Positions 3,803-15,330 of a stretch of DNA of 20,311 bases are shown in pieces. The notes under the pieces were generated by a model. That model ran no database searches and was not told where the DNA came from. It saw only the letters and a program-made list of their open reading frames with translations. The stretch comes from a virus. How positions within the stretch are numbered: position 1 is the stretch's first letter; every line of letters starts with the position of its first letter. A program made the translations under genes and the position numbers. The DNA is taken from positions 1 through 20,311 of the IMG/VR virus record IMGVR_UViG_3300006923_000169. One strand, written 5' to 3'.

Positions 3803-4795
3803 ATGTACTTTGATTTTATGCCAAAATTTAATTATAATTTTCCATCATTTGTAGATATAGAAATGGTAGATTTATTTCGCAGAGTAAAATTTACAAAAAA
3901 AACATTAAATGATGCAAAGAACTTTGAATCTTATGTGGTAAGAGATACTCAACGACCCGAAGATGTTGCGGCCGATTTTTATGGAAATGCCAATTTATGG
4001 TGGTTAGTGTTATTATCAAACGATATAATTGATGTAGAGAACGAATGGTCGAAATCGTCCACAGAATTGCGGTTTTTATTTTCTAATTATCTTGATGGAT
4101 ATAGTTATTTTTTATTTGAAACTTTAGACATATTAAAAGGTGATATTATAATAAAAAGAGATATCGGTTCGACAGGCGGAATTGATATCGACAATTTTGG
4201 TATTATAGACTCGTATGATAAAATATTACATAAAATAGATGTCAAACAATCAAAAGGTGAATTAGAAGTCGATGATGAAGTATATATCTTTAGAGGAGAA
4301 GGTGATGAATATAAGTTAATTGATGGTTTTGGTTCAACTGGGTGCTACAAACCAAATTTCGATTCTAATGTATGTATTATTGTTGATGGCCCAGATGAAG
4401 ATTTTGCACCATATTGTTCAGCGGCAGGAACAACTTTTGGTGTGATACGCAAAAAAGATTCAATTAAAGATTCGATTGTCGAATTTCAATATGATAACAA
4501 TAAGATTAATCCATATAGTGGTTTAGATTCGCTTGGTGGTCCTACGGGAGATTATTTAAGTTTTCAAAATTTATGCGGTATGACTGGAACTATATTATAT
4601 AAATACTTGACTAATGTTTCCATCGGAACGGTGCAGACATTCTCGGTTGAAGATAAAACACATTTAAAAAATGATAAAATGAGACATATTAAATTAATGT
4701 CGCCAAAGTTTGTAAGTAAAGTAAGTAACGAAATGTCAACATTATTTAAGGGTAATGTTCCAAAAGGAACGAATGTATTATTAGAACAAAGATAA
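3803..4795 (+). CDS. 53: Baseplate wedge protein, T4 gp53 family
   Basis: A 330-residue protein. Residues 1 to about 110 match gp53: FMPKFNYNFPSFVDIEMVDLFRRVKF, YVVRDTQRPEDVAADFYGNANLWWLVLLSN (the LysM-like segment, where a low-profile 'RPEDVA..FYGN..LWW' motif is typical), then DVENEWSKS. gp53 joins neighbouring wedges around the hub in the T4 baseplate. T4 gp53 is about 196 aa, so this protein has an extra stretch of about 130 residues, rich in Asp, Gly and aromatic residues (roughly residues 110-290), with three cysteines in close succession (TGCYKP, NVCII, YCSAAG). AAGGAG overlaps the gp48 stop codon and sets the start at 3803. Confidence 0.85.
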   Translation: MYFDFMPKFNYNFPSFVDIEMVDLFRRVKFTKKTLNDAKNFESYVVRDTQRPEDVAADFYGNANLWWLVLLSNDIIDVENEWSKSSTELRFLFSNYLDGYSYFLFETLDILKGDIIIKRDIGSTGGIDIDNFGIIDSYDKILHKIDVKQSKGELEVDDEVYIFRGEGDEYKLIDGFGSTGCYKPNFDSNVCIIVDGPDEDFAPYCSAAGTTFGVIRKKDSIKDSIVEFQYDNNKINPYSGLDSLGGPTGDYLSFQNLCGMTGTILYKYLTNVSIGTVQTFSVEDKTHLKNDKMRHIKLMSPKFVSKVSNEMSTLFKGNVPKGTNVLLEQR

Positions 4796-4808: not shown

Positions 4809-6977
4809 ATGGCAGAAGAAACACGAAAAAGACAAACACCAGCCGATATTGATATAAAATATATTAAAATTGCGAAACCGAACGAGTCATGGAACTATAA
4901 CAAAGTATTACAAGTATTGCCCAGTCCTGAAGACTCTCCCAAAAATATTTTTGAAAATTTAACTATTACTGAAAGTATATTCAACTCTGGAATAACTGGG
5001 ATTCTTAAAATTCACGATACAAATGTAGTAGGTGATTATTTCAATATGACTGGTAATGAACAGATAATGATTAGTTTTAACACACCAAACAAAGATAATT
5101 CGGAACACATTTTAACTTTTTGTGTCAATGATGTTAGACACATTCAAGATGAATCGGCACTTGCTTTGGATGGACCTTCTGTTAGATCAAATATGGGTTG
5201 GGAAATTTCATTTATATCATGTGAAGATTATTTGTTGAATTGGGAAGATCTTGAGTATATGGATAATGATTTTATCGGTAAAATTGCATTCGAAGGTGGT
5301 GATGATAAAGGGTTCGTGGATAAACTAGCAGAAAAATATTTCAACCCAAACACAACACAATTCTCTAAAGCACAAGAACCAATGGACATTGAAAATACAA
5401 GCAATTCTTTATGGTTGAAAAAGAATCAAAATATGTATCCGTGGGGAAAAGATGTTCATCCACCAATTCTTGGAAAGTTGATGAATAATCTCGCTGAAAA
5501 CGCCGTCTGTGATGAAGATACCTTCGGAGTGAATTATTTATTCTATGCAGATCTAAAGGGATGGCACTTTAAATCTATTAGAAAGATGATAAAAGATGGA
5601 TCGGAAGAAGGTGTCCTGGTTGGTGAACTTCAAGACGAGAGCAAGAACGAATATGTAATTTCTGATATGGAACATGATGAGCCGTGGCTTGGAGCTAATT
5701 CAATTTTGAAACATTCAGAAATCACCGAATATGATCATTTAAATGCATGGAATGATGGAGTATATTCATCTTATTATCAACTGATGAAACCATATTATGA
5801 TGATCCATATTTTGATTATATCGATTTTACAAGTCAACATACTGGTACTACAGCAGAAAATTGGGGTGATAGGGAAATTATAGACTATAGTTATCATCGA
5901 GAACAAGAACAATGGGGAGGACCCGAAAAAGGTGGTAGAGTAGAAAAGTTCAAATTAATTCCTGACCTTTGGGAAACCGATATAGAGTTCAAAAACAACG
6001 GAGAAGTAAAAAAGAAATCCAGAAGAAAATATGATGAAAGTGGAATATATGGATATTTTGATTCGCCGTATAATCATCCAAACGAAAAGCCTTACGATTT
6101 TATCGGATCAGATGCTCTACATGCAAAAACAGGAAAACAGAATGATATTTTATGGCAGACAATGTTTGATCAAACAAAACTTTCAGGAACCATCTTGAAA
6201 ACAATTCAAAAAGAAATTAAGGATCCTACAAGGGAAAATTACAAGTCTCATGTTGCTATGGTGAATTTAAAAGAAAAATTTAATGTATATCGTCATTCTA
6301 TATGTTGTGATGAACAAGCAATTAAAAACTTTGTATTTCTTGCTTGGGTAGATGATGCAAGAAAAATTCAAGATGATGCAAGAGGTGGAATATATGAATA
6401 TTCGTGGAAAGAAGTAGAAATTTGGCCTGTAGATTTCGTTGAAGAAATTAAAGGAGAAGAAGTTCCAGTTGATAGTCGTTCTCCTTTAAAAATAGTTATT
6501 CCAGAAAATGGAATGACAGGAGGATTTCATAATGAAGAGGATGAAAAATATAGCAATCCAGCATATAATATAAATGAATTATTAAATACAACAGATGGAG
6601 ATAATGTGTATGTTGGTCCTGGTGTAAATGCGGCTGATGAAGATCATAATGATTATCCCGAATCATATCAAATGATGCCTGTTGGTGGATTTTTTGAAAT
6701 TGGTGATGATGGAATTTCAATAGACCCTTGCGAACTACAAGACGAAGATGATAATGGCATCATGGATGGGCCGTGGACTGCAAGAGGACACATAGTTCAA
6801 ATGTATAGAATTCCAAATTATATTTTAGGAGAAATCAATGAAGATGGAGAAGTAGTTCGTGGTGGAATTGCACCAGTTGAATCGGATCCTGAAAATATTG
6901 ATCCGAAGATTCCTACAGACATTTTCTTTTTTGATGTTCCGAATGCCCACGATGGATTGTGTTCTTGCTTGTCATAG
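4809..6977 (+). CDS. 27: Baseplate hub protein, gp27-like N-terminal part, enlarged
   Basis: A 722-residue protein. Residues about 48-115 resemble the first domain of T4 gp27: a LTITESIFNSGITGILKIHD strand pair, then DYFNMTGNEQIMISFNTP and VNDVRHIQ, parallel to the T4 pattern LTMRDSLYGRNEGMLQFYD followed by KMDGNEIIQISVAN. Next come an ISFISCEDYLLN strand and a second module around LGKLMNNLAENA and NYLFYADLKGWHFKSI. gp27 is the trimeric hub ring linking spike and tube. The protein is nearly twice the T4 length (about 391 aa), with long acidic, aromatic insertions, and its very end is HDGLCSCLS. The closing domain of gp27 is not evident here but seems to be encoded at 12228-13073. The start is supported by AAGGGTGA upstream. 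Confidence 0.7.
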   Translation: MAEETRKRQTPADIDIKYIKIAKPNESWNYNKVLQVLPSPEDSPKNIFENLTITESIFNSGITGILKIHDTNVVGDYFNMTGNEQIMISFNTPNKDNSEHILTFCVNDVRHIQDESALALDGPSVRSNMGWEISFISCEDYLLNWEDLEYMDNDFIGKIAFEGGDDKGFVDKLAEKYFNPNTTQFSKAQEPMDIENTSNSLWLKKNQNMYPWGKDVHPPILGKLMNNLAENAVCDEDTFGVNYLFYADLKGWHFKSIRKMIKDGSEEGVLVGELQDESKNEYVISDMEHDEPWLGANSILKHSEITEYDHLNAWNDGVYSSYYQLMKPYYDDPYFDYIDFTSQHTGTTAENWGDREIIDYSYHREQEQWGGPEKGGRVEKFKLIPDLWETDIEFKNNGEVKKKSRRKYDESGIYGYFDSPYNHPNEKPYDFIGSDALHAKTGKQNDILWQTMFDQTKLSGTILKTIQKEIKDPTRENYKSHVAMVNLKEKFNVYRHSICCDEQAIKNFVFLAWVDDARKIQDDARGGIYEYSWKEVEIWPVDFVEEIKGEEVPVDSRSPLKIVIPENGMTGGFHNEEDEKYSNPAYNINELLNTTDGDNVYVGPGVNAADEDHNDYPESYQMMPVGGFFEIGDDGISIDPCELQDEDDNGIMDGPWTARGHIVQMYRIPNYILGEINEDGEVVRGGIAPVESDPENIDPKIPTDIFFFDVPNAHDGLCSCLS

Positions 6978-6995
6978 ATATAATACAAGTATACT

Positions 6996-9900
6996 ATGAG
7001 AACAAAGAAAACATGTTGTTGTTGCGGTGATAGAACCTGTAGGGGTGATGAATATCGTTATAATTCCACCGAAAATACCAATTGTAAAATATGTGCGCTG
7101 GGTGTTACGACTGTAAATGTTTCAGAGTATGAAGATTTTGCACCATCCGAGCCGTCTGCAAATCAGGGGGACGAAGTGTGGTTAGGAATGGATGGTGATG
7201 GTCATCCCGATAACTTATACATGGGGAATATTTGTTGGCATAATGGTCATGAGGGGTGGGATTATTATCCCAATGAATGTGAATGGAATAAGTGTTGGAA
7301 TGATTATGAATCGTTTGGATTATCTAATCCACCCAAAGTAAGTTTTTATCAATTTGATTCACCTTATGGTATTTTACCGTGGTCTCCAATTTCTTTTATG
7401 GATTGGAGAGATAATTGGAATGGACCATTATTACCTCAAGGTGATTGTACAATGCACTGTACCCAAGAAAACATAGGTTGTCACTCTTTGGCATTTGTTG
7501 GTGCAATTGGGAAAAATTTTGGTTCTACTGATTTAGCAGACGGGTTACCACTTTGTGGTTCAGACATTGTAACAGTTCCTCCACCCAGAAGCGAATGGGA
7601 CTGGATTCGGTCTTGGGTGAAAAGTGGTGGTAAACTTATTATTATGGGAGAGTCGAGTGGGAGTCCTATGTCTAGTATGCCCAGTTGCAGAACGAAAATG
7701 GATTTCTTTAATCCTGATTCATCATATTATACACAGAGATGTACCGACGCTATCAATTCTGAAGATACAATGAGTGGGGAAGAGGTTGCGTTGTTGTTGC
7801 AAGAATTTGCATTTTATATTGCTAGGCAGGATGATGAAGAAGAAGAGTCCATAAGATGGTTTGAATTTGAAAATGAGGAAGTAGAACCAGATAACTTTAT
7901 TAATAATTTTGAAGCTTACGTAGATGATGATGGAAATGAAACTGCAATCGTTCGCTCTTGTTGCCAAAAATCTAAAAGACCATTTATAAAAAGAGATTCG
8001 GTGGATGATCCCATGAAACCATTTTCTTTTCAATGTTCTTCAAGTAGTGGACTATTACCAAAAGGTAAAGGTAAAGGATTAGTAGGTCATTGCAACGGTG
8101 ATGGTTGTACTGTGGTATGGAAACCTAATGATTTGGGTGCTGTAGTGGTTGTATATGATTCTGATGTCTGGGGTGCTTCTAATTCTCAAATACCTTTAAG
8201 TTGGTGGGAACAAGAAGCACAATACCCACAACATCAAGAACTTGGATTGGGTGCTATTGAATTAAAAACTAGGGCATGCAATAATGACTTTTGGAATTTT
8301 ATGTGTGTTGACTTTCTTTCCGAAAATGCATATATTCCTTCTGAATGTGGAGATGAAGTATATTGGAAACATAAAGAATCTGATGATTATGAGTTTGGAG
8401 AAAATCCTTGCTTAAAAACAGCAAAGTGTTGTATACCAGATGGAAGTTGCATAGAAACAAATATTTGGGATTGTTGGGGATATACAGATTATAATGGTCG
8501 AGAATTACCAGGTACTTGGTATGGTTCAGAATTTATTCATCCAGATGGAAGAGGTGGTGGGGAATGTCAAAGCTGTGGTTCTTGTGAAGAATTTAAGAAG
8601 GGTCTTTGTTGTGTTGTTGACCCAGATGGATTGGGTTGTGGACACGATTGCTGTTTAGAGCTAGATAATGTTGGTCACGAAATGTATGAATATGAATGTA
8701 ACTGCTTGGTGAAATCAGACAATTATTCGTGGGTGAATGAAGTTGAGTGGAAACAAGGAGAAACTAATTGTGATATTTGTTTTGTAAAAGGTGCTTGCTG
8801 TACAGGAAATGAAATGTGCGAGGTTATGCGGGAAATTGAATGTAATAAATTATATGGACCTGAATTTTTTCATGGTGAAGATTCAACTTGCGATCCGGAG
8901 AATCCTTGTGAAATTCCTAGAGGTGCATGCTGTGATGGGTTCACTTGTATCTCTGACGTTACCGAGGACTTTTGCAATAGCAGCGGCGGAGAATATATGG
9001 GAGATGAAATGCCATGCGATGAAGATCTCTGCGAAGGTGATCCCGGTGCATGTTGTTTGCCAAATGGAAATTGCGTCTTTGATACTGAACATGATTGTAA
9101 TTCACTTGGAGGAACGTGGCAGGGCGCGAATGTGCAGTGCAATCAAGTGGATTGTGATATCAGTCAAGCATGCTGTATTCCTACTGGTGTTGTTGATTGT
9201 TACGAATGTAACGATATGATGCCTGATGCTTGCTATGGAGCCAGCGGCGAACCACAAGGGAATGGTATAATGTGTGATGATGATCCGTGTGATGAAAGTG
9301 GGTGTGGAACGGGAGCGTGTTGTTATTGGACCGGTTCTCAATGTTCATGTTTTGAAGCGGAAGAAGAAGATTGTGATTGCTACCCAGGGTGGGATGATTG
9401 TTTTAAACCGGGAAAGAATTGTGGTGAAGTAGATTGCTGTGGAATTTGTTGCGATAGAAGCAATGGAGATTGTTTGAGTGGTGGGGCCTGTACCATTCCA
9501 GAATGGGTATGCAACAGTTACGATAACGAACTGTTCATACCATGTACCGATTGTGGATGTATTTCTTCGTGTAGTGGTGAATATACAAGTTGTGAAGGTG
9601 TAGGAATATGTTGTGTAGAAGAAGAATGTGAAGACGTAACGTCTTCACAAGAATGTATAAAGTTGAATGGGATTTATACAATTGGTACACAATGTGCTGA
9701 TGTATCATCTTCGTTTTGCCGTTTGGGTGCTTGTTGTGTTGAAGAAGAATGTGTAGAGATAACGATAAAATCTGCGTGTGATGGCACTTGGGTTGAAGGT
9801 ATTTTGGATTGCGGTGAAGTGGATTGTGGTATTGGTGCTTGTTGTTATTATCAAAATGTAATCCAACCGCATGAATGTGAAGATATGCTGTTGCAGGTGT

Positions 9901-12209
9901 GCATTGACAAGTTTGATGGTGAATTTCATAGTGGCACATTATGTGAGGATGATGCGGACTTGTGTATTCCGACAGGTGCGTGTTGCTTTGAAAATGGGGG
10001 TGATATGCAATGCGCTTGTTGTATGACCGAGGACGATTGTGAATATGTGTACAACGGTGTTTGGATTGGAGGTGTTGATTCTTGCGATGACATAGATTGT
10101 GACAACATCGGACCCTGTTGTATTCAACCACCCAACTTTCCAATGGATTGCAGTTACTTACGTTTTAGTGAGTGTGAGATGATGAATGAAGATGCTTGCC
10201 TTAAGGTTGATGGATTTCCTGGGCCTAATGGAACAGATTGTGCTGGGTATTCATGTGCGGGAACTTGTTGTGCAGAAATTGAATACTTGGACGATGGGTG
10301 GATGACATTGTATTGGTGCGATGAAAGCGTGTCTGAACATTTTTGTGATTCAATTGTACTTGCAGATTGCTTCATAGACCAGGGTTATAACGTCTGGTAT
10401 GCTACCGCGAACTATTCAATGTTGGAGGATTGTTGTTGGTGTCAGGAATCTGGTGGCACGACTGCTCCGTGGGAGGGCCCGTGTTGTTTCGGCACTGATT
10501 GTGATGACAACTACACCGAATGCGAATGCAATGCAACCCCAGACGGGGTTTGGATGGGCATAGTAGATAACCTCGGTTGCAATAATACTGAATTGTGTGG
10601 GGTTAGCGCCTGTTGCATCCAGTCTAATATGAATGGCAATCCTGTGGCCGGATGCGTCATGATGGATGCTGACGAATGTACAGATTTTAATGGCCAGTCC
10701 GGCACAGTGTTTGGTGATAATTTGGTTGCCTATCCGTACCTTGGAGTCCATTGTGATGACAATCCGTGTCTGGTAGGTTGTTGTGTAAAGTGGTGGGACA
10801 CGTACATGGGATGTAATCCTAGTACAATCGGTGATTGTGACTATGACGATGGAGATTACTACACAAACCCCATCGAGTGGTTTTGGGATGGACAATGGTG
10901 GAACAATTATTTCCGATGCGCCTATGATGGAGATAACAACGAGTTGTTGTGTCCCCAGGCTTGTTGCGAAGGTACAAATTGCACCAACACCATTTACTCC
11001 GACTGCTGGGGTGATGTTGTGTGGGGAGAAGATTGCGATTGGGATGGCGATCCATGTATTGACACAGGGGCTTGTTGCACCCCGAATTCTGGGTGTTCAT
11101 CAAAGACTCAAGCAGAATGCGTCAGTAACCACAACCCCCCATATTATCCCACCCACTGGATATCTGAAGATTGCGGAGATGTGGAATGTGACGATTATTT
11201 TGGTGCTTGTTGCGATTGGTGGAATGTAGAGTGTTACGAAACCACTGAAGACGAGTGTCCTGGGGATGCGGAATTTGAACTAGGCATCAAGTGTCATCAA
11301 ACGCAAGAAGTATGCATGCAGGTCCATGCCTGTTGTTGGTCGGACGGCAGCTGTGACGATGAAATATGGTTTGACTGTTGGGATAACTGGGGTAACTGGG
11401 ACGCAGATCATCTTTGTAGTGACTGGGGTTTTAATTGTGCTGAAACTGGTGCATGTTGTTATGATGATGGGGTTTGTGTGGATAGTTCAACGGAATCAAA
11501 TTGCATATACTGGGGTGGCACATGGTGGGGAGAAGGTTCTTTTTGTTGGGAGTGGGAGTGTGCAATCGCAAATGGTGCATGTTGTTATGGAGGTTGGGAT
11601 GATTGCACTGAAGACACTTCCCAAAGCGCATGCAATGCAGGTGGTGGTAGTTTTATGGGTGCGGAGAGTGCCTGTATTGATTGTGTGAGTGCTTGTTGCT
11701 ATCAACATCCCATTTATGGACCGTATTGTGCTGAGGTGGCGGCATGGGATTGCTGGGCGAATTACTGGAATGGAGAACCCCATCCGTATTCTGGCTGCAA
11801 TGGTGTTGGCTACTGCTGGGATTATACTGGGTGTTGTTTGGGGAATTGTGAATGGTCATATTGCTGGTATACTGACAACACAGATTGGCATTGGCATGAT
11901 GAGACTATACGGTGGATCGATTGTGATGGAGAATGGTACATGCATGATTCTTGCGGATGGGATTGCGATTGGTGTTATTTAACAAATCCAGAAGGAAGAG
12001 AAGATGAACCAAGTAGAACACGGAGCAGAACACAGAAACCCGATGGAGGCATTGGTGGTCTGGGTGGAGCGACCAATAATGAATCGAGCAATAAACGAAA
12101 CGATAGCAGACTAATACCGCCAAGCGAACCAGAATGTTCTCAAAAATGCAAAGACGCTGGATGTGATTGTCATTGTTTGGAAACAAATAACGGAATAGTT
12201 TGCTTATAA
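6996..12209 (+). CDS. Giant cysteine-rich modular virion protein (1737 aa)
   Basis: I do not recognise this protein as a known phage family. It begins MRTKKTCCCCGDRTC. Residues about 160-280 could be an alpha/beta domain: a CHSLAFVGAIG strand, SDIVTVPPP, the helix-strand pair EWDWIRSWVKSGGKLIIMGE (the form seen in glutamine-amidotransferase-like folds), and a helix EEVALLLQEFAFYIA. From about residue 475 to 1660 it is about two dozen modules with paired cysteines. A linker rich in Arg/Ser/Gly follows, then a closing cysteine cluster (CSQKCKDAGCDCHC). My hand count is about 200 cysteines (roughly 12%), with many Asp, Glu and Trp and few Lys. There is no signal peptide. It lies between the two hub-like genes in the same orientation, so it is probably virion-associated. 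No Shine-Dalgarno sequence precedes the ATG; TATAAT lies at 6979-6984. Confidence 0.85.
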   Translation: MRTKKTCCCCGDRTCRGDEYRYNSTENTNCKICALGVTTVNVSEYEDFAPSEPSANQGDEVWLGMDGDGHPDNLYMGNICWHNGHEGWDYYPNECEWNKCWNDYESFGLSNPPKVSFYQFDSPYGILPWSPISFMDWRDNWNGPLLPQGDCTMHCTQENIGCHSLAFVGAIGKNFGSTDLADGLPLCGSDIVTVPPPRSEWDWIRSWVKSGGKLIIMGESSGSPMSSMPSCRTKMDFFNPDSSYYTQRCTDAINSEDTMSGEEVALLLQEFAFYIARQDDEEEESIRWFEFENEEVEPDNFINNFEAYVDDDGNETAIVRSCCQKSKRPFIKRDSVDDPMKPFSFQCSSSSGLLPKGKGKGLVGHCNGDGCTVVWKPNDLGAVVVVYDSDVWGASNSQIPLSWWEQEAQYPQHQELGLGAIELKTRACNNDFWNFMCVDFLSENAYIPSECGDEVYWKHKESDDYEFGENPCLKTAKCCIPDGSCIETNIWDCWGYTDYNGRELPGTWYGSEFIHPDGRGGGECQSCGSCEEFKKGLCCVVDPDGLGCGHDCCLELDNVGHEMYEYECNCLVKSDNYSWVNEVEWKQGETNCDICFVKGACCTGNEMCEVMREIECNKLYGPEFFHGEDSTCDPENPCEIPRGACCDGFTCISDVTEDFCNSSGGEYMGDEMPCDEDLCEGDPGACCLPNGNCVFDTEHDCNSLGGTWQGANVQCNQVDCDISQACCIPTGVVDCYECNDMMPDACYGASGEPQGNGIMCDDDPCDESGCGTGACCYWTGSQCSCFEAEEEDCDCYPGWDDCFKPGKNCGEVDCCGICCDRSNGDCLSGGACTIPEWVCNSYDNELFIPCTDCGCISSCSGEYTSCEGVGICCVEEECEDVTSSQECIKLNGIYTIGTQCADVSSSFCRLGACCVEEECVEITIKSACDGTWVEGILDCGEVDCGIGACCYYQNVIQPHECEDMLLQVCIDKFDGEFHSGTLCEDDADLCIPTGACCFENGGDMQCACCMTEDDCEYVYNGVWIGGVDSCDDIDCDNIGPCCIQPPNFPMDCSYLRFSECEMMNEDACLKVDGFPGPNGTDCAGYSCAGTCCAEIEYLDDGWMTLYWCDESVSEHFCDSIVLADCFIDQGYNVWYATANYSMLEDCCWCQESGGTTAPWEGPCCFGTDCDDNYTECECNATPDGVWMGIVDNLGCNNTELCGVSACCIQSNMNGNPVAGCVMMDADECTDFNGQSGTVFGDNLVAYPYLGVHCDDNPCLVGCCVKWWDTYMGCNPSTIGDCDYDDGDYYTNPIEWFWDGQWWNNYFRCAYDGDNNELLCPQACCEGTNCTNTIYSDCWGDVVWGEDCDWDGDPCIDTGACCTPNSGCSSKTQAECVSNHNPPYYPTHWISEDCGDVECDDYFGACCDWWNVECYETTEDECPGDAEFELGIKCHQTQEVCMQVHACCWSDGSCDDEIWFDCWDNWGNWDADHLCSDWGFNCAETGACCYDDGVCVDSSTESNCIYWGGTWWGEGSFCWEWECAIANGACCYGGWDDCTEDTSQSACNAGGGSFMGAESACIDCVSACCYQHPIYGPYCAEVAAWDCWANYWNGEPHPYSGCNGVGYCWDYTGCCLGNCEWSYCWYTDNTDWHWHDETIRWIDCDGEWYMHDSCGWDCDWCYLTNPEGREDEPSRTRSRTQKPDGGIGGLGGATNNESSNKRNDSRLIPPSEPECSQKCKDAGCDCHCLETNNGIVCL
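8418..11985 (+). repeat. Array of about 24-25 cysteine-pair modules
   Basis: The translated array repeats a degenerate pattern: (G/S/Q)-A-C-C, 3-10 residues, C, about 5-7 residues often with T and D/E, C, then G-x-(W/F)-x-G, C, 2-5 residues, C. Clear copies include GACCLPNGNC...GGTWQG, GACCYDDGVC...GGTWWGEG and GACCTGNEMC. A typical copy has six cysteines, an even number suited to three disulfides or to metal binding. Copies are diverged in DNA and vary from about 35 to 60 residues, so the array is old. Similar GACC...C...GG.W.G modules occur in secreted proteins of several bacterial groups (recall only). Confidence 0.85.
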
Positions 12210-12212
12210 ATA
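12205..12212 (+). promoter_or_regulatory. Candidate late promoter before the hub C-terminal gene
   Basis: Exact TATAAATA overlapping the TAA stop of the cysteine-rich gene. T4 spacing would start a transcript near 12218, inside the AGGAG ribosome binding site (12217-12221) of the next gene, leaving a leader of only about 10 bases. The overlap with a stop codon makes a chance match quite possible. Confidence 0.35.
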
Positions 12213-12227
12213 AGTTAGGAGATATCT

Positions 12228-13073
12228 ATGGCAAAACATGATTTTTTAGTAAAACTTACACACTTTGCAAACACCGATTGGCCCACAGTTAGATTAGGTC
12301 ATTCTGTCGGTGCATTCGATGATAAGTATCCATGTGCAAATCCAGAAGGGCCTGTGGATAATTCGGGTTGTAGTGATCCTGAATCACCCGATTATGACCC
12401 AAATAATCCTCTTTGTATGTGCCCCTGTCAAGAATTGAATCCTGCACTCCATAGTAATTTGGTCGATTTTCCGTGGTATGTTGATATTTTTACTGGATTC
12501 GGTGCTGGGGCTGCAATTTGGAATTGGTTGATGGGAAATTCCGAGACTGTTAGAGAACCTACAATCGAACAACTTAAAGAATCGGCGGAATCTATAAAAG
12601 AATGTGATTTAATTAAAAGTAAACTTGGCGAATCTTGGATGGGATGTCTATGGAAAACACAAAATCATCCTAGCAGCTGTAATTGTCCCTGTGTGGGTGA
12701 GGACTTCAAAAAATATATCGAATATTCTAGAACATATTCTACCTATTGGGACACACCACCAACGACTCCTTTATGGAGAGCATCTCAAATGTCTCTTGCA
12801 CGGGCGCAAACGTCTGTTATTGTGGTTAATGGTGATTTGACGTTGAGACCCGGACATTTAATTTATATTTCCGCCCATCAAGCTGGGGCGATGGGTAAAA
12901 CGAAAAAGTTTTCTGGGCGTTGGTTGGTGTCTGATATTTCCCACATTATTCAAGGAATGCAACACAAGATGGCACTGAAATTGATTAGAGATAGTTCTCC
13001 TATAGATCCAAATAAATCTGAGTTGGATGGAAAATCGTGGTGGGAAAAAATATGGAACTTTATTACCGCGTGA
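12228..13073 (+). CDS. Hub protein resembling the C-terminal part of gp27
   Basis: A 281-residue protein. Residues about 165-265 resemble the last part of T4 gp27: a long helix (LWRASQMSLARAQTSV), then VNGDLTLRPGHLIYIS, a loop, FSGRWLVSDISHIIQG and the closing strand HKMALKLIRDSSPIDPNK. These correspond to the T4 run with NFNLTPGVKIIF, EFYVDEVIHEL and LYMFTNATKLETIDPVK. The first half is different: an N-terminal segment, two cysteine clusters (CANPEGPVDNSGCSDP and LCMCPCQE), a Gly/Ala hydrophobic segment VDIFTGFGAGAAIWNWLMG, a helix, and a third cluster SCNCPCVGE just before the gp27-like domain. It may complete the hub ring together with the 722-residue protein. AGGAG at 12217-12221 supports the start. 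Confidence 0.65.
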   Translation: MAKHDFLVKLTHFANTDWPTVRLGHSVGAFDDKYPCANPEGPVDNSGCSDPESPDYDPNNPLCMCPCQELNPALHSNLVDFPWYVDIFTGFGAGAAIWNWLMGNSETVREPTIEQLKESAESIKECDLIKSKLGESWMGCLWKTQNHPSSCNCPCVGEDFKKYIEYSRTYSTYWDTPPTTPLWRASQMSLARAQTSVIVVNGDLTLRPGHLIYISAHQAGAMGKTKKFSGRWLVSDISHIIQGMQHKMALKLIRDSSPIDPNKSELDGKSWWEKIWNFITA

Positions 13074-13143: not shown

Positions 13144-13548
13144 ATGTCTCAAGAGTATCAATATTCCGATTTCGATGTGGATTTCACCAAAAATGAATTT
13201 GTTGATGATATATCATTGGTTAAAGAAATTAATGCAATTCGGCAATCAATTACCAACATAATCTTAACATCACCCGGAGAAAAACCATTTATTAGAAATT
13301 TTGGAGTTGGAATATATAAAATATTATTTGAGTTGTGGACTCCGTTATTGGAATTTAAACTAGAAAGAGATATCATTGATGCAGTAAGAATTTGGGAGCC
13401 GAGAGCAGTTGTCCAAAGTGTATTATTTGATGGAACAGAAATGGACAGTAATTTGCTCATTCTTGATATACGGTTTCAAACTAAACGAGGAACTAGAGCA
13501 AATCCCAAACTAAATAGTCTAAAAATATCACTCGTAAAGGTAAGATAA
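13144..13548 (+). CDS. 25: Baseplate wedge protein gp25 (lysozyme-like family)
   Basis: A 134-residue protein, almost exactly the length of T4 gp25 (132 aa). The family signature is the SPGEKPFIRNFGVGIYKILFE segment near residues 43-63, followed by helix LEFKLERDIIDAVRIWEPRA and a terminal strand pair. gp25 is part of the wedge core with gp6 and gp53 and helps start sheath assembly; despite the old name 'lysozyme' the family is structural. It is conserved across contractile injection systems (gpW/gp25). Its stop codon directly abuts the ATG of gp6, which implies coupled translation. Confidence 0.95.
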   Translation: MSQEYQYSDFDVDFTKNEFVDDISLVKEINAIRQSITNIILTSPGEKPFIRNFGVGIYKILFELWTPLLEFKLERDIIDAVRIWEPRAVVQSVLFDGTEMDSNLLILDIRFQTKRGTRANPKLNSLKISLVKVR

Positions 13549-15330
13549 ATGTCACAAACCCCAAATATCCAATTAGGAAGCCTCGAATATACAGATATAA
13601 AAAATAGTATTATAGAACATCTAAAATCACAAGATACTTTAAAAGATTATGATTATAGTGGTTCTGTAGCTCAAGTATTGTTGGATATACTTGCATATAA
13701 TACATTGTATTATGGTTTTTATGCAAATATGATTGCAAGTGAAATGTTTTTAGATACGGCACAAAAAGAAGAGTCTATTATTTCACTTGTCAAGCCTCTC
13801 GGATATGTAGTACCTGGTCGAAATTCTGCAAGAGCAAGAGTAAAAATTCGACACGGTGGTGCAGACGGTGAAATACCTAGATACACGAAATTTATCGGAT
13901 ATAATTCATCGGGTATTGCATATAGTTTTTATACGATTGAAAAATATGCATTGGATTCTGATGGTGAAAACATTATTGACATATTAGAAGGAAACTCTTT
14001 AATCAAAGAAGAACCTCTTTCAGTTGATGAACATACTCAAAAAGGATTCTTGTATGGTACAGATATTGATATTACTACTATCAGGTTGGATGTAAAAAAT
14101 TCAGATGGTGAATGGGAAGAGTGGACGATAGTAAACAATATTCAAGCTGGATTAGATAGTTTTAGTAAAGTATTCTGGTTAGAAAGAACAGAACTTGGGT
14201 TTTTTATAGTATTCGGTAGTAATTTTGATTCATCCTATAATCAAATCGGCCAGTCATTAACCCCCAATCAAGAAGTAAGAGTGTCATATCTGAAAAGTAG
14301 TGGAACTTCAGGAAATAATATTGGAAGTTTTGAAATTCAAAACTTTTCAGGCGTATCCACCACTACGACCACAAATCTATCTGCCGGTGGTTCAAGCAAA
14401 CCCGATCTTGAAGCAATTAGATTCTTTGCACCAAAATGGTTTGCATCACAGGGCCGAGCAGTGACGATTGAAGATTGTCGAGGAATTCTTGCAGAGTCTG
14501 GAATTGTGGGTTCGGCAGAAGATGCATATTCAGAATTTATTGTTTGGGGTGGTGAAGAAGAATATCCTCCTCGGTACGGTCGACTTTTTGTTTCTTTGAA
14601 AGAGAGTAATATTGTTGATCCTGTATCGGCTCATAATGCTATTAAGTTGCTCGAAGAAAAAACTTGTGTTACTATAATTCCAGAATTTATGAATGTTGAA
14701 TCCTATAAACTGATAGTATCTGGAACTTTACTATATGAACCGATGAATACCCAATATTCATCAACTCAATTATTGAATTATTCAATCGATAAAATTAAAG
14801 AAAATTATCCAAGTAGATTTAAACTTGAAAATGTAGATTCTTCCACAATGACTACCTTAATTAATTCTGTAGATACTGCAATTGTGACGAATTCTGATGA
14901 TATTTCATTAAAATTAATGAAGGTTGTTAATGTCAATTCCGATGGAAGTATCAATTCTCAAAGTTTTAATAATAAATGTAAGGAATCTTCTTTGGAATCT
15001 GATTGGTTTAAACCGTCAGATACTTTAAAAACTTTATACAACATTCCAAATAATACTGATATTAAAATCAATTGTATTGATTTGGTAAATAAAGATGGTT
15101 GGCAAAAAATTAATGCTTATTTTAATTCTGGTGGTGTAACAAATTCGTGGACTACTGGGAAATGGAATCCAGATAGTGGAGAAGTTACATTTTATCAACC
15201 CATTTCAGCTGATAATGAAATATATTTGTATGTTGGTTCGGGACATTCTGGTTCAGATAAATTTGACATAAAATATAACATGTATGCATCTGGTATTATT
15301 TTTGATTTAAGCATAGAACCAAGAGGATAA
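13549..15330 (+). CDS. 6: Baseplate wedge protein gp6
   Basis: A 593-residue protein (T4 gp6 about 660 aa). The N-terminus matches the gp6/gpJ-like pattern: LEYTDIKNSIIEHLKSQDTL, a DYSGSVAQVLLDILAYNTLYY helix, ANMIASEMFLDTAQKEESI and VKPLGYVVPGRNSARARVKI. Later it has EAIRFFAPKWFASQGRAVTIEDCRGILAE, the conserved core that precedes the wedge dimerisation domain. gp6 dimers form the inner ring of the baseplate and change conformation on sheath contraction. The ATG follows the gp25 TAA without a gap; AAGG lies inside the end of gp25. The C-terminal part (about residues 480-593) ends in a beta-rich domain. Confidence 0.93.
   Translation: MSQTPNIQLGSLEYTDIKNSIIEHLKSQDTLKDYDYSGSVAQVLLDILAYNTLYYGFYANMIASEMFLDTAQKEESIISLVKPLGYVVPGRNSARARVKIRHGGADGEIPRYTKFIGYNSSGIAYSFYTIEKYALDSDGENIIDILEGNSLIKEEPLSVDEHTQKGFLYGTDIDITTIRLDVKNSDGEWEEWTIVNNIQAGLDSFSKVFWLERTELGFFIVFGSNFDSSYNQIGQSLTPNQEVRVSYLKSSGTSGNNIGSFEIQNFSGVSTTTTTNLSAGGSSKPDLEAIRFFAPKWFASQGRAVTIEDCRGILAESGIVGSAEDAYSEFIVWGGEEEYPPRYGRLFVSLKESNIVDPVSAHNAIKLLEEKTCVTIIPEFMNVESYKLIVSGTLLYEPMNTQYSSTQLLNYSIDKIKENYPSRFKLENVDSSTMTTLINSVDTAIVTNSDDISLKLMKVVNVNSDGSINSQSFNNKCKESSLESDWFKPSDTLKTLYNIPNNTDIKINCIDLVNKDGWQKINAYFNSGGVTNSWTTGKWNPDSGEVTFYQPISADNEIYLYVGSGHSGSDKFDIKYNMYASGIIFDLSIEPRG

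Follow-up and report, generated by a model that had tools for sequence, protein, structure and literature searches.

The 20,311-nucleotide stretch of virus DNA analysed here (the window; IMG/VR record IMGVR_UViG_3300006923_000169) carries, at positions 6996-12209 of its plus strand, an open reading frame of 1737 residues (CYS) that is located inside a split hub gene of a T4-like baseplate cluster. CYS is a conserved gene and not an artefact. Because its modules resemble those of secreted Planctomycetota proteins, CYS is probably a disulfide-stapled tail part that touches the host. The more specific proposal that CYS would be a hub-anchored, disulfide-stapled and diversifying host-contact chain, a structural component at the tip of the tail, has in our estimate about an even chance of being correct; the location in the virion, binding to the hub, disulfides, receptor role and host that go with it are what we infer.

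CYS contains 203 cysteines (11.7%), in agreement with the roughly 200 (about 12%) counted when the open frame was first noticed in the letters of the DNA (the sequence-only reading). Thirteen strict six-cysteine modules (xxCC-C-C-C-C) were detected, against a mean of 0.85 and a maximum of 5 when the same residues were shuffled 2000 times, and beyond residue 475 the looser xxCC starts number about 28; these counts bear out the description of CYS as a giant modular cysteine-rich protein. Contig L001 (IMGVR_UViG_3300037634_003492) aligned across the full window with no mismatches and one 5-base gap, which is located outside the CYS ORF between the hubC and gp25 genes described below, and the CYS protein of L001 is identical to that of the window. 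As homologues with the same layout are present in many other contigs, an assembly error, named by the sequence-only reading as something that could undo its interpretation, is excluded by these homologues and by the second identical assembly. Also present in both contigs is an ORF of Asn/Thr/Lys/Asp-rich repeats (NITKDNTKNIKLPN) at positions 1-804 on the minus strand of the window, which extends further in L001.

No significant match of CYS or its modules to a Pfam, NCBIfam or PHROG model was obtained. Searches of 50,697 phage records by tblastn with CYS, a three-module query, hubN and a head consensus gave no match either, nor did a megablast of 8.3 kb against the same records; of these queries, the three-module and the head one were constructed to resemble a consensus and, since BLAST masks low-complexity sequence, a search with modules has a lower sensitivity than one with the head. 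The possibility that CYS is an already described cyanophage or pelagiphage protein was therefore not supported by these records, and a literature search found no paper on a protein of this type. As judged from these searches, CYS appears to be new, nothing like it seeming to have been described in the searchable phage records or literature.

The genes around CYS constitute a T4-like contractile-tail baseplate cluster, as the sequence-only reading had proposed. Pfam and PHROG searches identified, all on the plus strand, gp53-like (3803-4795; PF11246, 5.2e-12), gp25-like (13144-13548; PF04965, 5.7e-12) and gp6-like (13549-15330; PF21379, 7e-17; phrog_219, 1.6e-80) baseplate wedge genes, which are clustered with hub genes, including a gp26-type one, and with phrog_150 and phrog_230. 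CYS had been placed between two hub-like genes. Its flanks are indeed hub genes, but they are the N- and C-terminal parts of one and the same hub gene (phrog_350), a split that had been overlooked. Gene hubN (4809-6977, plus strand) encodes the gp27-like/phrog_350 N-terminal part of the hub (residues 1-500; match to profile positions 174-277, 1.9e-17) followed by a 222-residue extension that ends in ...GLCSCLS and is kept in L023, L024, L025 and L029. Gene hubC (12228-13073, plus strand), whose product contains Cys in its N-terminal stretch, encodes the C-terminal part (profile positions 351-435, 1.3e-9) and aligns with the C-terminus of the HTVC008M tail protein. Thus, hubN and hubC match the N-terminal/middle and the C-terminal parts of the profile, in that order. 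In Pelagibacter phage HTVC008M, by contrast, the phrog_350 hub is one ORF of 445 residues (YP_007517895.1; profile positions 8-433), while here there are two ORFs, with Cys-rich coding sequence of about 1.2-8.2 kb between them. Because hubN and hubC match different parts of a protein that is a single ORF elsewhere, we conclude that the CYS gene lies inside a split hub gene.

The hub was found to be split in the window and in all CYS relatives, and unsplit in HTVC008M, L005 and L006. In the latter two, which are sister contigs (L005, 5171-9544; L006, 3488-7948), a single ORF of about 1460-1490 residues encodes it, with an insert of about 800 residues, Cys-poor and unrelated, at the site of the split; homology of this insert to the CYS head or to the hubN extension was sought with hhalign and rejected. 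From its gene position and general knowledge we take the hub to be the counterpart of T4 gp27, and no profile match to T4 gp27 was found among PDB sequences. In the window hubN, CYS and hubC share one reading frame, which is not so in L023, L024 and L025. Read-through or fusion of the three ORFs was discarded, since the frames differ in the relatives and stop codons and a strong ribosome site are present before hubC.

That ribosome site, AGGAG, is accompanied by a T4-late-promoter-like sequence, TATAAATA; together they occupy positions 12205-12227 (plus strand) and overlap the CYS stop codon. From the base composition we estimate that chance would place about two copies of the promoter-like sequence on this strand of the window, so that only its conserved position counts; the same arrangement is present in L004, L023, L024 and L029. 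No clear ribosome site precedes the start of CYS. Taken together, the two elements at the CYS stop and the start of CYS suggest that hubC is expressed separately and probably more strongly.

Relatives were retrieved with a hubN profile (L023, L024, L025/L026 and L029), with a module DNA pattern (L153 and the L156 group) and with a profile of the CYS head, which matched 21 viral loci whose heads are 31-64% identical. On the basis of head identities, of which none exceeds 88%, these correspond to about 15 distinct viruses, to which the headless L153 and the fragment L004 are added; about 16 distinct viral contigs share the layout, and the order hubN, Cys-rich gene(s), hubC was observed in every complete locus. 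Uncultured T4-like phages with a split hub and a Cys-rich giant form a widespread group. The lack of a clear ribosome site for CYS, when hubC has its own, would fit a cargo gene parked between the hub halves whose product stays outside the particle. We hold this to be very improbable, as the position, always between the hub halves, is kept over deep divergence (head identity down to about 31%).

The Cys-rich protein varies across the loci from 396 (L153) to 2745 residues (L180). In L169, L171, L172 and L182 the head and the array of modules are encoded by separate adjoining ORFs and in L153 the array is present without a head, which indicates that head and array are separable units. In CYS the head comprises residues 1-475 (6996-8420, plus strand), contains 5.3% Cys and is a virus-specific domain with invariant motifs (GDCTMHC...CH, GGKL and others). 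The profile search that had been recommended for this part led to the viral loci mentioned above and to no match in Pfam, PDB or Planctomycetota. An AlphaFold2 model of the head had a pLDDT of 31 and was unusable. A GATase-like fold was considered for the head on the basis of a single weak match (L184, near a GH42-like domain; E 0.006, 101 genomes) and was not upheld by a better profile.

The array (residues 476-1711; 8421-12131, plus strand) consists of the xxCC-started modules, contains 13.9% Cys and is followed by a C-terminal stretch (12132-12209, plus strand; ...ECSQKCKDAGCDCHCLETNNGIVCL) that is 65-85% identical to those of L023, L029 and L004, while the arrays there are about 32-38% identical. 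In the loci analysed, arrays combine a GACC-type module with a second, DxDCP..CC type. Comparison of L023 with L029 gave identities of 86.6% for hubN, 86.5% for the head, 82.6% for hubC and 80.9% for gp6, but of 52.4% for the array, in which there are 166 gap columns and 87.4% of the Cys are kept at a non-Cys identity of 46.3%. This contrast indicates that the head keeps pace with the hub in its evolution and that the array behaves as would an exposed part diversifying on a Cys scaffold. It favours the receptor-binding chain that was among the roles suggested by the sequence-only reading, receptor binding itself staying a presumed role. The array could instead be purely structural and read no receptor: a collar, spike or cross-linked cage around the hub, locked by disulfides, would then stiffen the tail tip. 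The hub locus, the very high Cys content, the acidic composition (D+E 18%, K+R 4%) and the different Cys-poor insert that sister phages carry at the same hub site are consistent with this; we consider it rather unlikely, since an array length of about 400 to more than 2200 residues and a sequence that changes far faster than hub and head are unlike a fixed-geometry load-bearing part.

When the module profile was compared with the PDB, only iRhom chains matched (E 1.2e-4). A template-free AlphaFold2 model of three consecutive modules (window positions 8790-9164; pLDDT 79) gave iRhom chains as the top four rows in Foldseek. The best-superposed match was to chain 8snl_B (39 residues, 1.6 A, probability 1.00, chain segment 568-611), and Foldseek and sequence-profile matches fall on the same segment of the iRhom chain. 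Thus, the modules match the iRhom homology domain in both profile and fold, with modest scores (Foldseek E-values 0.02-0.6, VIA Z 4.4). This domain contains eight disulfides (PMC11248996, PMC12184519) and its fold was described as unprecedented (PMC11248996). One module aligns with the domain of iRhom1/2 by profile and fold, Cys included; the iRhom domain, however, is a single domain of a eukaryotic membrane pseudoprotease and forms no array, and homology and convergence could each account for the likeness. The checks proposed earlier, a module profile search and a model of consecutive modules, accordingly led to iRhom, and the former also to Planctomycetota repeats. The suggested disulfide-locked state is favoured insofar as the modules resemble extracellular disulfide-rich modules (iRhom, secreted bacterial proteins), the disulfides themselves being presumed. 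Among modules that depart from six Cys the Cys count was even in 16 of 31, which is weak evidence on pairing, and Cys parity was rejected as proof of disulfides.

Alternatively, the cysteines of CYS might bind a metal (zinc, copper or iron) in the cytoplasm and form no disulfides. CYS starts with MRTKKTCCCC and displays no hydrophobic secretion signal (by inspection only), the head has an invariant CxxxC...CH motif, and an Evr1/Alr sulfhydryl oxidase was not found in two long related contigs; all three would fit metal binding. We regard it as quite improbable, because His makes up only 1-3% of the array, the homologous bacterial modules are secreted and the similar iRhom domain is disulfide-bonded. 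Neither metal binding nor a central spike, both put forward in the sequence-only reading, gained positive evidence. The thioredoxin family was represented in related contigs by matches below the cut-off only, and both ORFs concerned look glutaredoxin-like. In a 123 kb relative (L031, 325-1818, minus strand) an ORF of 497 residues appears by eye to combine glutaredoxin-like and glutamine-synthetase-like domains.

An exact codon pattern for GACCLPDG[ST]C, a form of the module that occurs in phage L023, matched over 119 bacterial loci, most of which carry Planctomycetota or Phycisphaerae in their titles, a count that is biased because the pattern represents one module version previously known from Planctomycetota. 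Many of the matched proteins start with apparent signal peptides, and one contains 30 modules in 1759 residues. A profile built from phage modules only also matched six-cysteine modules in bacterial genomes (E down to 2.6e-10 per genome); in evenly drawn genomes its matches numbered 3 among the 78 other genomes in the phylum of one such genome, 9 among the 60 others in its class, and 0 among the 79 others in the phylum of a Bacteroidota genome. The Planctomycetota modules (e.g. L046, L071, L130, L139) share with those of the phages the six-Cys spacing, a similar Cys content and an arrangement in arrays of up to 30 modules. They differ in that the bacterial proteins have signal peptides and lack the phage head, whereas in the phages the modules diverge more and occur alongside the DxDCP..CC type. 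On this likeness we infer a putative Planctomycetota host; a host search for the phage gp6 gave 0 of 392 Planctomycetota genomes. A record titled Leptolyngbya sp. PLA1 (L084) also carries the module, and its bin label PLA1 suggests a mislabelled planctomycete.

Besides being common to secreted Planctomycetota proteins, the modules are present in fibre genes; the sequence-only reading had missed both. In a 29.8 kb contig of the same virus, modules recur in the fibre-region genes that come next, of 1010 and 1024 residues; the 1024-residue one also begins with a collagen-like part and has a VWA domain, a combination with cysteine modules that was recorded in one fibre-region protein of this virus at L019 16537-19611 (VWA: PF00092, 2e-8). 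The L005 genome contains four consecutive Cys-rich fibre-region ORFs of 976, 1920, 2052 and 341 residues (L021, reverse strand). A module-bearing fibre protein of L020 (10001-13075) displays a weak, below cut-off match to Lcl_C (PF07603, 0.0014), and G014 (L156 contig) contains at about 2.4-6.6 kb, besides the hub-locus protein, an open frame of 3080 residues with many GACC modules. The modules that phages and secreted Planctomycetota proteins have in common could also mean that the array travels out with the genome or stays behind in the host envelope, as an effector or inhibitor mimicking secreted module proteins of the host, and is not a permanent adhesin. The link to the hub, the presence of the same modules in fibre genes and the failure to match any catalytic or inhibitor family leave this a low probability.

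In the host-contact chain that we favour, the head would be a virus-specific adaptor binding the hub, whose polypeptide splits exactly at the CYS gene, and the array of disulfide-stapled modules would reach out from the hub to the host surface. The array would diversify by gain, loss and swapping of modules and by point changes around the retained Cys scaffold. CYS would be made in reduced form in the cytoplasm and be oxidised after release, which would result in a stable, protease-resistant chain outside the cell. CYS is a fast-evolving modular chain encoded in a tail gene cluster, as are the modular tail fibres and the adhesins of T4-like phages; to our knowledge, none of these described so far is cysteine-rich or has its gene within a split hub gene. 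A bolder and only tentative version, which we think is more probably wrong than right, holds that the hub gene was opened into two chains and that the gap is used to display an exchangeable array of disulfide modules with relatives among the extracellular proteins of the (Planctomycetota) hosts. This would be a hub-borne diversifying recognition system that has no counterpart in cultured phages and whose module fold is shared with eukaryotic iRhoms.

CYS thus represents a protein type that was not found in the 50,697 GenBank phage records and yet is common to many uncultured phages, with a presumed role in the virion, and its locus indicates that a core hub gene tolerates being split with a giant gene in between. 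The protein may serve as a marker for phages of Planctomycetota, and its modules would provide bacterial and viral relatives for the iRhom homology domain.
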